Shown one piece after another: positions 1-5,684 of a stretch of DNA of 5,684 bases. The stretch lies in contig JACQVL010000039.1 in the NCBI GenBank assembly GCA_016209865.1, forward strand, positions 1-5,684, given 5' to 3'. The DNA is from Candidatus Latescibacterota bacterium. GTDB lineage: Bacteria; JAAXHH01; JACQVL01. Each line of letters begins with the position of its first letter. Position 1 is the first letter of the stretch. A program made the translations under genes and the position numbers. Below the pieces are notes generated by a model. The model was not told the origin of the DNA, did not search any database, and saw nothing but the letters and a program-made list of their open reading frames with translations.

Positions 1-27
1 GAGCCGGGTTCCAGTCGGCCTGCAGCG
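1..27. repeat. Direct repeat, copy 1 (attC arm)
   Basis: These 27 bases are identical to positions 798-824. Both copies are the L''-side arm of an attC site, so the repeat is explained by attC conservation along the array and not by a separate element. Confidence 0.95.
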
Positions 28-38
28 CGTGGTTAGAC
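1..38 (-). other. Partial attC site of cassette 2
   Basis: On the - strand this begins with the R'' core GTCTAAC (complement of 32-38), which fits the RYYYAAC consensus, and continues into the L'' arm toward the window edge. It matches the corresponding arm of the complete attC (798-835) at 34 of 38 positions, with 27 identical bases in a row. The matching R' half (GTTRRRY) must lie outside the window. The lipoprotein gene stops 6 bases before this core. Confidence 0.88.
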
Positions 39-44
39 GCCTTT

Positions 45-662
45 TCAGATCTCCGTATGATCATATTGAAGAGTCAGAAGCCGTGCCCGAGAAAACTGTA
101 ATTTACAGGGCCCCTGAAGTACTCTCAACTCTATTTCCAGTGTGAAATAATAGGAATCAACACAGCCTAGACAGTCCAAAAGCACTGCTACTGTATATCT
201 TCTGCGATTTTGCTTCTTCTCGATTTGCAGGGAATCCGGCGAAACGTAGAGCAACTCAATTGTATTCCCTTGATACTCCTGGTTGAAATAGTGAAGGTCT
301 GTGTCGTAATCAGCCCCATGGGTCGCTCGAGTTGAGTTCGGTTTCTTGATCCGCGGCCAATCCCAAGCTTTAGGCAATGCCTCGTAGAACATCCGTCCGG
401 TCAAAATCCCCTGTTCACATAAGATCGCTATTTGATCCCTGGGATTGCACTCTTCGGAGAGATAATTTCCAGACAAATAGAAACGGAAGGCCCCCTTTTG
501 GTAAGTCGTATAACTGATATAACCGTTGCCTCGGAAGACTTCCACTCTTTGAGGAGGAATCGCTTGAAATGCCTGAGAGGGCATTATACGCGATGGAGTC
601 GTACAACCTATCAACAAGGCGGATATTAGGCTGACAATGAGGCTCTGCCACATGCCTTTCAT
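45..662 (-). CDS. Cassette-encoded lipoprotein of unknown function
   Basis: The 205-residue product opens with a lipoprotein signal peptide: Lys2, a hydrophobic stretch over residues 5-19 and the lipobox L-I-G-C with Cys20 as the lipidation site. Thr21 at +2 would direct it to the outer membrane under the Lol rule, if the host has one. The mature part is about 185 residues with no membrane segment. It is rich in Tyr and charged residues and has five further cysteines (72, 82, 164, 167, 186), including a CLGC motif at 164-167. I recognise no domain. ATG at 662 is preceded by GGAG with a 4-base spacer; Met4 is an alternative start. The TGA stop lies just before the attC core. Base composition is clearly more AT-rich than its neighbours, as is common for cassette genes of foreign origin. 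Real coding is well supported by the signal peptide and cassette boundaries; function is unknown. Confidence 0.82.
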   Translation of the reverse strand: MKGMWQSLIVSLISALLIGCTTPSRIMPSQAFQAIPPQRVEVFRGNGYISYTTYQKGAFRFYLSGNYLSEECNPRDQIAILCEQGILTGRMFYEALPKAWDWPRIKKPNSTRATHGADYDTDLHYFNQEYQGNTIELLYVSPDSLQIEKKQNRRRYTVAVLLDCLGCVDSYYFTLEIELRVLQGPCKLQFSRARLLTLQYDHTEI

Positions 663-707
663 ATCTCTCCAATTATCATATCAACCTCATCACAAGCCTC
701 AAAAGGC

Positions 708-835
708 GTCTAACGCCCCCGCTCAGCCGCTGGAACCCGGACGACAAGGCCTCCAAGAGGCTGAGCGGTGGAATCAAGTCCAGCGGATCGAAAAGCCGAG
801 CCGGGTTCCAGTCGGCCTGCAGCGGGTTGTTAGCT
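708..835 (-). other. Complete attC recombination site of cassette 1 (128 bp)
   Basis: On the - strand the site runs from R'' AGCTAAC (complement of 829-835) to R' GTTAGAC (complement of 708-714); GTTAGAC fits GTTRRRY exactly. The arms fold into the long hairpin typical of attC. Positions 730-740 pair perfectly with 801-811 (11 bp), and the pairing continues outward between 717-729 and 812-826. Three bases of the R''-side arm (812, 816, 820) have no partner. These are candidate extrahelical bases, on the side where attC sites normally carry them, and they set the orientation. The variable terminal region is about 60 nt (741-800) and contains a small GCCTC/GAGGC hairpin (749-761). A total of 128 bp is close to the length of Vibrio cholerae VCRs. 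Confidence 0.92.
798..824. repeat. Direct repeat, copy 2 (attC arm)
   Basis: Identical to positions 1-27. It forms the R''/L'' side of the complete attC at 708-835. Beyond it the copies continue to agree except at a few bases (825, 828) and in the cassette-specific core bases. Confidence 0.95.
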
Positions 836-1444
836 GGCAGGACTTTCTACCCTTACGATCCCCCTCGCGGCAAACCATTCCCTCAGCGCGGGGACGGACC
901 GGAACTGGTGCGCCCGAATCCCCACCGACTCGGCCCGTTCCACATTCCTCACCGAGTCATCAATAAACAGGCACTCGTGGGCGGCACACCCTACCTCGGC
1001 TAAGACATGCTGAAATGTCTCCACCTGCCGTTTCGTCCTCCCCATCTCAAAGGACAAGAACCGCCGCTCGAACCCTGCGAGAAAGCGATGCGTCGCCTCG
1101 ATATACTCCCACCACTCCTTCCCATGATCGGACAGGAGCACCAGCCGATACGCCTGGAGTGATGCAAGGAGTTCAGGCATCCCTGGAACGGGCCGTTGGA
1201 AGGCTGCCCGCGCCAAGGCCCCCAACTCATCTGTCGCGATACTCCATTGGGTCCGGGTCAGAACCTGGTGCCAGTACATGGCCTCGGACATCTGGCCCTC
1301 CACCAAGGCGACTAACGGCGGACCGCCCAAGCCGGGCAACACGGTCTCTTGGGGAATCCGGAGGCGAGTGGCCAACGGCTCCACGACGCCATAGAGGCCC
1401 TCAATGAGCACCTCGGACAAATCGAAGATCAGGACGGGACGCAT
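830..1444 (-). CDS. HAD-superfamily hydrolase, cassette-encoded
   Basis: The 204-residue cytoplasmic protein has the haloacid dehalogenase fold signature, subfamily I with a helical cap. Motif I is FDLSEVL with the nucleophile Asp8; motif II is LLSDH with Ser105; motif III has Lys138 in GRTKRQ; motif IV is FIDDS with Asp162/Asp163. Residues ~15-85 are the likely cap. The usual second Asp of motif I is Ser10, as in YihX-like proteins (DLGNV), so phosphatase activity is plausible but the acid/base arrangement is atypical. The substrate cannot be deduced. I chose ATG at 1444 because it opens directly into motif I and has GGAG 6 bases upstream. An in-frame ATG at 1474 would add 10 residues but spans the attI/cassette crossover. 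The TAA stop is part of the attC core AGCTAAC. It is the first cassette, so the one most likely to be expressed from a platform promoter. Confidence 0.9.
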   Translation of the reverse strand: MRPVLIFDLSEVLIEGLYGVVEPLATRLRIPQETVLPGLGGPPLVALVEGQMSEAMYWHQVLTRTQWSIATDELGALARAAFQRPVPGMPELLASLQAYRLVLLSDHGKEWWEYIEATHRFLAGFERRFLSFEMGRTKRQVETFQHVLAEVGCAAHECLFIDDSVRNVERAESVGIRAHQFRSVPALREWFAARGIVRVESPAS

Positions 1445-1465
1445 ACTCAACTCCGAGGCCCTGCC

Positions 1466-1530
1466 AGCTAACATTAACTGTACGGAAAGATATCTATAGC
1501 TGCTCCTACCACCGTGGCCTTGTCGCTGTC
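1466..1530 (-). other. attI: attI site (crossover at GTTAGCT; left boundary approximate)
   Basis: On the - strand the sequence runs GTACAGTTAAT then GTTAGCT. The latter is the recombination core, with cleavage expected between G (1472) and T (1471), and the first cassette follows immediately. No attC-like hairpin exists upstream of this point, so this junction is attI and not another attC. The R' core is certain. The second integrase-binding box and any accessory direct repeats could not be assigned with confidence, and the outer limit is a guess based on the ~65-bp size of known attI sites. Confidence 0.72.
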
Positions 1531-1837
1531 ATCGAGCTTTGATCCAGCAAGCATGGTCGGTTGAGCGTATGAGACGGTGTGTTTGCTCGGTCAGCCGCGC
1601 CGAGGGCGATGAAATTCCACTATCGTACGAGAACGCGACCGATTCTTCGTCTAATTAGAGGACTCCTTGCAAGGCCGAATCTCTGGGGCAGACGCTCGGT
1701 CACGGATGGGGAACCCGCTCTTCTTCGGATGCCCTGATCCTGAGCGACAGGGGACAAGTCATTGCCGGAGGATCGGTTATTGTATTGTGTCATACTGGAA
1801 CCAGAATGTCAAGGAGTATTTCACTCCGGAGTCCCCG
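1473..1837. promoter_or_regulatory. intI-attI intergenic region; divergent promoters expected, none firmly located
   Basis: These 365 bases lie between two divergent units, so they should carry the integrase promoter (+) and the cassette promoter Pc (-), unless Pc lies inside intI as in class 1 integrons. Seen directly: a perfect 10-bp palindrome TCTAATTAGA at 1650-1659, an 8-bp palindrome TCGTACGA at 1623-1630, and a 9-bp direct repeat GCTCGGTCA at 1585-1593 and 1694-1702. The best -10-like hexamer for intI is TATTGT (1783-1788), with TTGCCG (1762-1767) only 15 bases upstream, which is a poor fit. No canonical LexA box is visible. The frame of intI stays open back to a TTG at 1667, but those 57 codons do not resemble an IntI N-terminus. 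Confidence 0.5.
1828..1831 (+). promoter_or_regulatory. Ribosome binding site that decides the intI start
   Basis: GGAG lies 6 bases upstream of ATG 1838. It supports that start over the upstream TTG at 1667, which would give a 389-residue protein longer than IntI family members. Confidence 0.6.
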
Positions 1838-2836
1838 ATGGACACGCCTCCGAAAAAACTCCTCGACCAGGTGCGTGAGGTGGTACGACTCAAACACTAT
1901 TCGCTCCGCACTGAAGAGAGCTATGTCTCCTGGATCCGCCAGTATATCGTGTTTCATCAGATGCTCCATCCCAAGGACCTGGGCCGTCAGGAACTGGAAG
2001 CGTTCCTTACTCACTTGGCAGTCGACCAGCACGTGGCCGCCTCCACTCAGAACCAGGCGCTGAGCGCGCTGCTCTTCCTGTACCGGGAAGTCCTGCAACT
2101 CGACGAGGACTGGATCATCGAAGCGATTCGGGCAAAACAGCCGCACCGATTGCCCGTCGTCTTGACGAAGGCGGAAGTCTTCACGATCATCACCGCCATG
2201 TCAGGGATGCACCAGTTGATGGCCAAACTCCTGTATGGCTGCGGAATGCGGTTGATGGAGTGTGTCCGGCTGCGGGTGAAGGATGTCGATTTCGCCCAAC
2301 ATCAGATTGTGATTCGAGCGGCAAAGGGCATGAAGGATCGGGTGACGGTGCTCCCCGACAGTCTGATCCTCCCGTTGCAGGAACGGTTGAACCATGTGAA
2401 GTTGATGCATGACCGGGATCTCGCCCTGGGGTACGGTCACGTCTATCTCCCGTTCGCCCTGGAACGCAAGTATCCCCACGCCAGCCAGGAGTGGGGCTGG
2501 CAGTATGTCTTTCCGGCAAAGAGCCTGTCGTCCGATCCCCGGACCGGACTGCGCCGCCGACACCATGTCCATGAGAGCAGTCTGCAGAAAGCGGTGAAAG
2601 CAGCCGCCCGCTTAGCCGGCATCGTTAAACACGTGCATTGTCATACCTTCCGGCATAGTTTTGCCACGCATCTGCTCGAACAAGGGTATGATATCCGAAC
2701 GGTGCAGGAACTGCTCGGCCATGCGGATGTGAAGACGACGATGATCTATACCCATGTCCTCAACCGAGGAGGCATGGCCGTCCGCAGTCCGCTGGATGCC
2801 CCTGCGGGAGAATATACGCCCGTCCCTAAGACCTGA
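1838..2836 (+). CDS. intI: Integron integrase (IntI-family tyrosine recombinase)
   Basis: This site-specific recombinase inserts and excises gene cassettes by attI x attC and attC x attC recombination, acting on the folded single-stranded attC. At 332 residues it is close to IntI1 (337). Residues ~5-95 are the SAM-like N-terminal DNA-binding domain ([18 protein letters not shown]). The catalytic domain follows with the full tyrosine recombinase set: Arg138 (GCGMR), Lys163 (AAKGMKDR), His269 and Arg272 (HTFRH), His295 (LLGHADV) and nucleophile Tyr304 (MIYTHV). Residues ~195-226 (including [10 protein letters not shown] and EWGWQYVFP) are the extra IntI patch that separates integron integrases from XerC/XerD. 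The gene is uninterrupted and all catalytic residues are present, so it is probably functional. It is transcribed away from the cassette array. I identify it as IntI with high confidence but cannot assign a class number. Confidence 0.97.
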
Positions 2837-3207: not shown

Positions 3208-4251
3208 GTGCGCTTGATGACGACAGACGTCTGGTTCAGGTCTCGCCGCGATCTCAATTTCCCCTCGGTGTTTCGTAACCACCAGGGCACACTCTTCCTG
3301 GCGTTCACGATCGGGACGCATGGTCAGGATGAACGGTGGGTGGCTGTGATGAGCGAGGATGAGGGAAGCACCTGGCTGCCAGATACCAACCCGATCCTGT
3401 ACGGAAGCGCACTCCCCTGGATGACGCGACCCTACCCGCTCGCCGGCCATCCGAAGATGCGGGTGGTCGGCCCGCTGCGGGATGGCTCGTGGCTGGGGTA
3501 CTCAAACACAGAAGGGGAGTGGTCTCCCCAACTCCGTACCTATCGCTCGTATGACGATGGACAGGCCTGGACGGAGGAGTTCTGGGCACTCGGCGGGCTC
3601 GGACTGGACCGCCGCCTGTTCCCGTTTGGAAGCCTCGTGGAAGAGGAGGACGGGACTTTACTGGTGCCCTTGTACGGCTATCAAGGCCCGTATTTTACGC
3701 CCGGCTCGTATGAGACGTGGGTGGGAGCGGTGCGGCCAGGGGAGATGTGGGTCCATCCCCGTGGCCGGGTGGCGCACGGCGCTGGCCAGGGCTGGGCGGA
3801 AGGCCCGTGCGAGCCAGCACTCGTGCGGTATCCCGATGGACGCATGATCTGCGTGATGCGCACCAGCGGTCAGCACGATCCTCTCATCCAGTGCGACTCG
3901 AGAGACGGTGGACAAACCTGGAGCGACCCCGCCATCCTGGATACAGAAGGGGTCGCCCCCCTGGCCGTGCAACTGCCCGACAGGGGGCCGACGATGCTGG
4001 TCTATGGCCGGCGCACGGGGGACCACGACGGGGTCGTTCTCCGCCTCTCGACGGACGAGGGTCAACACTGGAGCGACTCCGTCTGGGTCTATGAAGGGGT
4101 GGGATGTAACTATGCTAATGCGCTGGTCGATGGAGCGGATCGCGTCACCGTTCTCTATGCCGCTTCGCACTTCACTTACACTCCGGCCGGCCGGCCCCAG
4201 TTCCGACCCGAAGGCTGGAATGAGGTCCGAGCCACGCAGGTCACGTTGTAG
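3208..4251 (+). CDS. Sialidase-family (BNR/Asp-box) beta-propeller protein
   Basis: The 347-residue protein has four Asp-boxes of the form S-x-D-x-G-x-x-W: SEDEGSTW (49-56), SYDDGQAW (114-121), SRDGGQTW (231-238) and STDEGQHW (281-288). These mark the turns of a six-bladed sialidase propeller. The segment around residues 199-220 (GPCEPALVRYPDGRM then CVMRTSG) matches the conserved Glu and Arg region of sialidase-like hydrolases. The N-terminal FPSVFRNHQGTLFLAF corresponds to the first blade, but a clear RIP motif with the first triad arginine is absent, so glycosidase activity and substrate remain uncertain. No signal peptide or membrane segment is seen, so a cytoplasmic protein is likely. 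GTG 3208 is chosen because AAGGAG (3195-3200) lies 7 bases upstream; ATG 3217 is the alternative. It probably shares a transcript with the remnant upstream and ends 10 bases before a convergent gene. Confidence 0.88.
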   Translation: MRLMTTDVWFRSRRDLNFPSVFRNHQGTLFLAFTIGTHGQDERWVAVMSEDEGSTWLPDTNPILYGSALPWMTRPYPLAGHPKMRVVGPLRDGSWLGYSNTEGEWSPQLRTYRSYDDGQAWTEEFWALGGLGLDRRLFPFGSLVEEEDGTLLVPLYGYQGPYFTPGSYETWVGAVRPGEMWVHPRGRVAHGAGQGWAEGPCEPALVRYPDGRMICVMRTSGQHDPLIQCDSRDGGQTWSDPAILDTEGVAPLAVQLPDRGPTMLVYGRRTGDHDGVVLRLSTDEGQHWSDSVWVYEGVGCNYANALVDGADRVTVLYAASHFTYTPAGRPQFRPEGWNEVRATQVTL

Positions 4252-4433: not shown

Positions 4434-5684
4434 TTAGATAATGGCGGCGAGCGAGGAATCTTGCTCCTTCAATAACTTCGGCTCTACGAACAACGTTTTC
4501 TCGTGCGTAAACACCACCTGGCCCGGCTTTCCGTCCTTCTGCTTCCTGACGTACCGGCGTTCGGTATAATCGACCGCCACCGTCGTCGACCCGCGCGCTT
4601 TGCTGAAGTACGCGGCCACACACGCCGCTTCGTACCGGGCAGCCTGGCTCGGCATCGCCTTCCGGCCCTCCCGGCGGAGGATGACGTGTGACCCCCCGAT
4701 CCCACGGGCATGAAACCAGAGATCATCCGGGGCTGCCGTCTTCGTGAGCACTTCGTTCTCCCGGTCGTTGCGGCCGACCAGGACGACCCAGCCGTCCGCC
4801 GTCAGAAACCGGCGAGGATGGATGTCCCCCGCCTTCCGCTTCGGCTTCGGCCGACCTGTCGCTTTCGTCCCATCCCGCGACTCCCGGATCAGCTCCCACC
4901 GGACACACTCGCGATGAACACGCTCGACTACCCCAGCGCCCAGTTCCCCCTCCATCCTGCCGCGTAACGTCCGGACGCGCTCAAGCCGTTCCCGCGCCTG
5001 CGCCAGCCGCCGCTCGATGATCGCCCGGCCATCCCGCGCTTTCTTCGCGTGCTTGAAGTACGCCTTCGCGTTGTCCGCCGGACTCAACGCCGGGTCGAGC
5101 GGAATCCGGAGGAGCGATTGCCCAGGGTCGTACAGGTCGGGAACGGCCGCTTCTGGTTGCCCGCGCCGGAGGACGGAGAGGTGGGCGGTCAGCAGGTCGC
5201 CGTACTTGCGGAACTCGTCCCCCCGCGCAGCCTTCGCCAAATCGTCCGTCAGGTTCACGACGAGCCGGTCGAGCCGGGCGACGTCATCGGCGAGGACCCG
5301 GCGGAGACGGGTGGCCTGCTGGCGGACCCGGTCGACCTCCGCCCGGGCCGCGTAGAACCGAACGATCGCCTCGCTCATCGTCGCACAGACGATGCGGCGG
5401 TCCGGCGGCAGGGATGCTAACGGGATGGCCGACAAGATGCCCGGCTGACCGGCTGGGTCGAGACCGATCATCGGCATCCATCTGCCCGTCCGGACCCGGT
5501 CGATCACTCCCGCCAGGCTGGCCGACAGCCGGGCGCGCCGTTCGTCCGGGGAACACCGGACAACCTCATCCGCCTCAGTCAGCCCCGCACCGGCCACGAC
5601 CTCCCGCGCCATGGCCGGACTCAACCCGCCCACTCGCCCGACGAGGCGCGTGACGAGCGATTCCGGAGTCTCCGCAGCAGCCAC
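4434..5684 (-). CDS. rqcH: NFACT (RqcH/FbpA-like) ribosome quality-control protein, N-terminus outside window
   Basis: The visible 416 residues are the C-terminal part of an NFACT protein. In bacteria such proteins (RqcH) bind obstructed 50S subunits and recruit tRNA-Ala to add alanine tails that mark stalled nascent chains for degradation. Visible: the end of NFACT-N and the helix-hairpin-helix segment (GLSPAMAREVVAGAGL, ~20-35); a long charged coiled-coil (~105-265) interrupted by the characteristic segment FRKYGDLLTAHL (158-169), VPDLYDP (181-187) and IPLDPALSPADNAKAYFKHA (194-213); then NFACT-R/DUF814 (~290-400) with VGRNDRENEVL and the signature DLWFHARGIGGSHVIL (321-336). The GTG at the edge is not a credible start: family members are ~550-580 residues, so ~150 residues, including the Asp-Arg motif needed for tailing, are not visible. 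The frame is intact. It is followed by a 51-codon gene in the same direction. The gene symbol is by family similarity only. Confidence 0.93.
   Translation of the reverse strand: MAAAETPESLVTRLVGRVGGLSPAMAREVVAGAGLTEADEVVRCSPDERRARLSASLAGVIDRVRTGRWMPMIGLDPAGQPGILSAIPLASLPPDRRIVCATMSEAIVRFYAARAEVDRVRQQATRLRRVLADDVARLDRLVVNLTDDLAKAARGDEFRKYGDLLTAHLSVLRRGQPEAAVPDLYDPGQSLLRIPLDPALSPADNAKAYFKHAKKARDGRAIIERRLAQARERLERVRTLRGRMEGELGAGVVERVHRECVRWELIRESRDGTKATGRPKPKRKAGDIHPRRFLTADGWVVLVGRNDRENEVLTKTAAPDDLWFHARGIGGSHVILRREGRKAMPSQAARYEAACVAAYFSKARGSTTVAVDYTERRYVRKQKDGKPGQVVFTHEKTLFVEPKLLKEQDSSLAAII

Follow-up and report, generated by a model that had tools for sequence, protein, structure and literature searches.

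An integron integrase with same-family attC sites, and probable single-cassette insertion at secondary sites, in a Candidatus Latescibacterota draft genome

Results

Organization of the integron

The window analyzed here is a stretch of 5,684 bp that makes up one entire contig (G000:C306) of the source draft genome, which amounts to 3.75 Mb in 356 contigs and is 83% complete. The following features were located in the window.

1–43, minus strand: 5′ half of attC2, with R″ GTCTAAC and the first stem arm; the 3′ part is missing
1–713, minus strand: cassette 2, cut off by the contig end; ORF at 45–662 (205 aa)
703–840, minus strand: attC1, complete; R″ CTAAC at 833–829, R′ crossover at G714^T713
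714–1471, minus strand: cassette 1, 758 bp; HAD-family hydrolase gene with probable start ATG at 1444 and stop at 830
1475–1837, no strand: spacer between intI and cassette 1, with a putative attI placed by its position
1784–1812, minus strand: candidate Pc-like promoter, TTGACA-17-CACAAT with TG before the −10 element, pointing into the cassettes
1838–2836, plus strand: intI, integron integrase, 332 aa when counted from ATG 1838, in a frame open from 1667
3208–4251: BNR-repeat protein gene, on the right flank of intI
4434–5684: NFACT-domain (RqcH/EfbA-like) gene, on the right flank, running past the contig end

The original prediction described a complete integron platform. The intI gene, two cassettes on the opposite strand and one complete attC were confirmed, but the contig, which stops at base 1, retains only the 5′ half of the second attC, and attI is assigned from its position. 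No further contiguous array is visible, since the window is the whole contig. attC1 has R″ and R′ cores and an imperfect stem, and is predicted to fold as a single strand. The predicted minimum free energy of the attC1 bottom strand was −37.8 kcal/mol, compared with −24.2 ± 3.0 kcal/mol for shuffled sequences (z = −4.6), and none of 200 shuffles was as stable. The 5′ arm of attC1 is repeated at 1–36 (36 nt, 94% identity; BLAST E value of 4e-11 within the loci searched). Integron cassettes require starts that are inverted repeats of R″ arms. Cassette 1 begins with an inverted repeat of the R″ arm over 14 nt (100%) and cassette 2 over 17 nt (94%), and both have G^TT junctions and starts complementary to their own R″. 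On the minus strand, the attI crossover would separate G1472 from T1471 (AATG^TTAGCTGG). The Pc-like candidate agrees with the consensus at 10 of 12 positions; it is weak evidence for a promoter, because shuffled sequences contain 0.4 such sites on average.

The protein of cassette 1 matches PF00702 and TIGR01509. That of cassette 2 has a lipoprotein-like N terminus (LLIGC) and matched none of the family models. The prediction that neither cassette is a resistance gene and that each has its own composition agrees with these analyses: no antibiotic-resistance model matched either protein, and the GC fractions of the two cassettes are 0.61 and 0.46. In an Rfam scan of the whole window, no family threshold was passed.

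The integrase and its relatives

IntI scored 477 bits with the integron-integrase model TIGR02249 (integron-type tyrosine recombinase; cut-off 265), covering positions 1–314 of 315, and it was the only protein of the source genome to pass that cut-off. The frame is intact, and residue stretches read from the sequence, including YTHV, fit the R...HxxR...H...Y catalytic set. The nearest solved structure is that of Vibrio IntI4 (PDB 2a3v, E value of 3e-93). IntI is 53.7% identical to IntI1 of class 1 and 52.4% identical to IntI3 of class 3.

In a tree of 85 sequences, from which IntI2 of class 2 was left out, IntI1 and IntI3 were paired (SH-aLRT 99) among proteobacterial sequences and apart from the window IntI. 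The latter grouped with sequences from Chloroflexota and Poribacteria and one from Desulfobacteraceae, with a support of only 82. The closest sequences found were those of Chloroflexi HyVt-544 and Candidatus Poribacteria Dive96_bin1.70, at 69–72% identity. The earlier placement outside the known clinical classes therefore stands for class 1 and class 3, given the 52–54% identity, the separate position in this tree and a right flank with no transposon in view. The window integron is real, lies outside class 1 and class 3, and is of a known kind.

The host order was covered by 16 genomes, and the wider comparison genomes share only the domain with the source. Integron integrases above the cut-off were present in two of these 16 genomes, the source genome and G001. 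The G001 integrases lie on other branches of the tree, so nothing points to a single integron passed down vertically.

A family of attC sites across the source genome

With the window and attC1 as queries, five more attCs were detected, on contigs C93, C40, C17, C57 and C52. In a blastn search limited to their own contigs, attC1 found them at E values from 2e-7 to 1e-16; genome-wide, the whole window found them at 3e-13 to 8e-4. A model, designated R1, was built from the six strong attCs of the source genome. Applied genome-wide, R1 recovered six full attCs at 114–137 bits, with attC1 at 137, and gave 35 bits to the partial attC2. The scores of the six are not independent evidence, because the same six sites trained the model; their independent evidence is the blastn E values.

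The mean pairwise identity of the six attCs was 63%. The near identity of attC arms that was claimed from the window holds there for the 36-nt 5′ arm and fails genome-wide. The count and identity along the array had also been asked for: there are six strong full sites in the genome, one of them in the window. The proposed likeness to the Vibrio superintegron was not supported: none of the six full attCs shares a contig with another, their identity is 63%, and at least one lone cassette sits in a conserved operon, as described below.

R1 found no match in 58 other genomes, and it is therefore specific to the source genome and gives no dating of insertions. For the two closest integrases, R1 recognized no attC belonging to them. 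By Pfam, a PIN domain is encoded in the C93 cassette and a thioredoxin-like domain in the C52 cassette, and the other cassettes outside the window had no match. PADLOC returned no match for four cassette proteins.

Two degenerate attC-like sites with a poor R′ box were also observed, both on the minus strand, at 5000–5104 of the C77 locus (35.9 bits) and at 6695–6819 of the C115 locus (31.4 bits). Perhaps they are decayed solo cassettes.

A cassette-like insert between ftsB and recO

On contig C17, the gene order is eno, an ftsB-like gene, two small ORFs, attC and recO. Ten relatives from the order have eno, ftsB and recO as direct neighbors, with 8–73 bp from the ftsB stop to the recO match. 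The corresponding distance in C17 is 795 bp and holds the two ORFs and the attC, while recO is intact and every gene direction is kept. This comparison shows that an attC-bearing, cassette-like unit was added. The C17 attC is therefore not an array fragment and represents an extra single cassette between the housekeeping genes ftsB and recO. Among the five solo sites, only C17 has an empty-site comparison, its site being empty in the ten relatives. For the left edge of the insert, the sole candidate is a GTTAG near 2882, a poor complement of R″.

Junctions of the C52 and C93 cassettes

Both edges were readable for two solo cassettes. In C52, the left junction is G^ATAGGTGGTTTGG at locus position 13634, before the thioredoxin-like ORF, and the attC on the right is followed by G^ATAGCATG. 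In C93, the left junction is G^TTGGGCCCCGCAC at 3736, before the PIN-domain gene, and the attC is followed by G^TTGGGCTGCCC. Each start pairs with R″ over 12 of 13 positions, and neither 13-mer occurred elsewhere in about 80 kb of the source genome on both strands, save in R″ itself. The junctions of C52 are at GAT (G^AT) and those of C93 at GTT (G^TT), at both ends. The HEAT-repeat gene upstream of the C52 cassette ends at the left junction, and the gene upstream of the C93 cassette stops about 45 bp ahead of it. The cassettes of C17, C52 and C93 all have the same direction as the gene ahead of each. The empty site of C52 would read ...GACG^ATAGCATG... and that of C93 ...GAGCG^TTGGGCTG...; a search for the former through the HEAT-repeat gene gave no usable syntenic relative.

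The two junctions of each cassette share a core of 8–9 bp. In C93, positions 3734–3746 and 4646–4658 have GCGTTGGGC in common, and in C52, positions 13630–13640 and 14738–14748 have GACGATAG in common. In both cassettes, the single left-junction mismatch to R″ is the base found at the right junction. The cassette core may have matched the target by chance, identity may help the insertion, or the target core may have been duplicated, and two cases do not decide among these. No description of such a shared core at junction pairs was found in the accessible literature.

For C57 and C40, cassette starts were looked for and not found; the C40 contig ends 110 bp past the attC. The solo cassettes are identified in different ways: C17 by the relatives, C52 and C93 by their junctions, and C57 and C40 as presumptive cassettes by their attC.

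Discussion

The most probable explanation is that this uncultivated bacterium carries an integron of working and sedentary type, and that single cassettes of this integron have also entered secondary (attG-like) sites. Circular cassettes would be integrated by IntI at the neighboring attI through attI × attC recombination, in which attC takes part as its folded bottom strand. Transcription of the first cassettes would start at a promoter located between intI and attI. Either the same integrase or an earlier one would have placed single cassettes of the same family at chromosomal GTT/GAT sites (attG, secondary sites), where each would follow the stop codon of a host gene and share the direction of that gene. 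The family assignment of IntI, the structure of attC, the complementarity at the cassette junctions and the attC-bearing ftsB–recO insert are direct results. The position of attI, the activity of the promoter, catalysis by this IntI and the secondary-site route are inferences.

There are known precedents for integrons, for single attCs and for insertion at secondary sites. The present integron resembles the sedentary chromosomal integrons of Vibrio, Xanthomonas and Pseudomonas in the divergence of intI from the cassettes, the folded attCs, the non-resistance cassette genes and the chromosomal-type neighbors. It differs from them in that two cassettes are in view, the attCs of the genome average 63% identity, and the host lineage is distant. 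Loot et al. (2024; doi 10.1038/s41564-023-01548-y) reportedly described the insertion of cassettes at attG or secondary sites. This attG work is cited in PMC12444791, PMC11023631 and other papers. For IntI1, the secondary sites have been described as GNT or GWTMW (PMC4618277), and cleavage at G^AT has been reported (PMC10127599). The solo cassettes resemble attG insertions in being single, outside classical att sites, at GTT/GAT and within possible reach of host transcription; unlike in the attG assays, the insertions here are natural and fixed, and the two readable junction pairs share the 8–9 bp core. The term SALIN denotes a single attC lacking an integrase (PMC12690207). The five other strong attCs, each alone on its own contig, are SALIN-like, but the genome has a resident intI, and one attC lies, as judged from the relatives, within an otherwise contiguous eno–ftsB–recO operon.

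Among the alternatives, the window could be the start of a large sedentary array (superintegron), with the remaining contigs missing from the bin and the solo attCs a minor feature. We regard this as possible, though clearly not the expected case, and it is compatible with single-cassette insertion, not its opposite. In its favor, attC2 is cut by the contig end, assemblies break at arrays whose attCs resemble one another (PMC9024848), and the genome is incomplete; because it is such a fragmented draft, some of the solo attCs may be array fragments. On the other hand, R1 found no contig of the bin with two full attCs, and a non-exhaustive search with the attC 3′ arm added no attC at any contig end.

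A more far-reaching version of the preferred reading is that, in this lineage, the spread of single cassettes by the integron into host operons is a regular route to new genes. Each cassette would land just after a stop codon and follow host transcription, its site being chosen partly by the 8–9 bp core identity between target and cassette, and would be expressed without being near attI. We put this forward as a tentative and rather doubtful proposal.

It is unlikely that the solo attCs are remnants of a longer or relocated array (decayed CALINs/SALINs) from which the surrounding cassettes were lost. The weak sites on C77 and C115 indicate that decay occurs, and an origin from degraded integrons has been proposed for CALINs (PMC9024848). 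Against this, C17, C52 and C93 each have one cassette behind a host gene, in three contexts and with attCs of 114–134 bits, and the ftsB–recO insert spans one cassette. A mobile, class 1–3-like integron on a transposon or plasmid is highly improbable: integrases of the same general group do occur on plasmids (the best plasmid-borne match, from the cyanobacterium Kovacikia, was 65%), but this IntI falls outside the clade of IntI1 and IntI3, the flanking NFACT-domain gene has relatives of 47–53% identity in every order-mate searched, and the window contains no resistance gene and no transposase among its ORFs.

Laboratory strains have served to map the insertion of integron cassettes at secondary sites; it is less clear whether such insertion leaves lasting marks in natural genomes. 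What is useful in the present case is that a poorly sampled lineage shows several natural insertions of solo cassettes alongside a resident integron. The integron, the five same-family attCs that stand alone and the ftsB–recO insertion make a concrete natural test case.

Additional observations

Poribacteria were considered as the host and rejected, since the RecO of the Poribacteria genome compared is only 32% identical, against 49–60% for the RecO proteins of the order-mates. The order-mate G001 has two different IntIs, on its contigs C397 and C98 (59.6% and 51% identity), one of them with a very long branch in the tree. G001 yielded no attC of the source-genome type. In C93, a glyoxalase domain is encoded behind the PIN-domain gene (Pfam). 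In the C40 locus, a transposase-like ORF lies beside a small ORF and the attC (13405–14847), an arrangement suggestive of a cassette hit by an insertion sequence.
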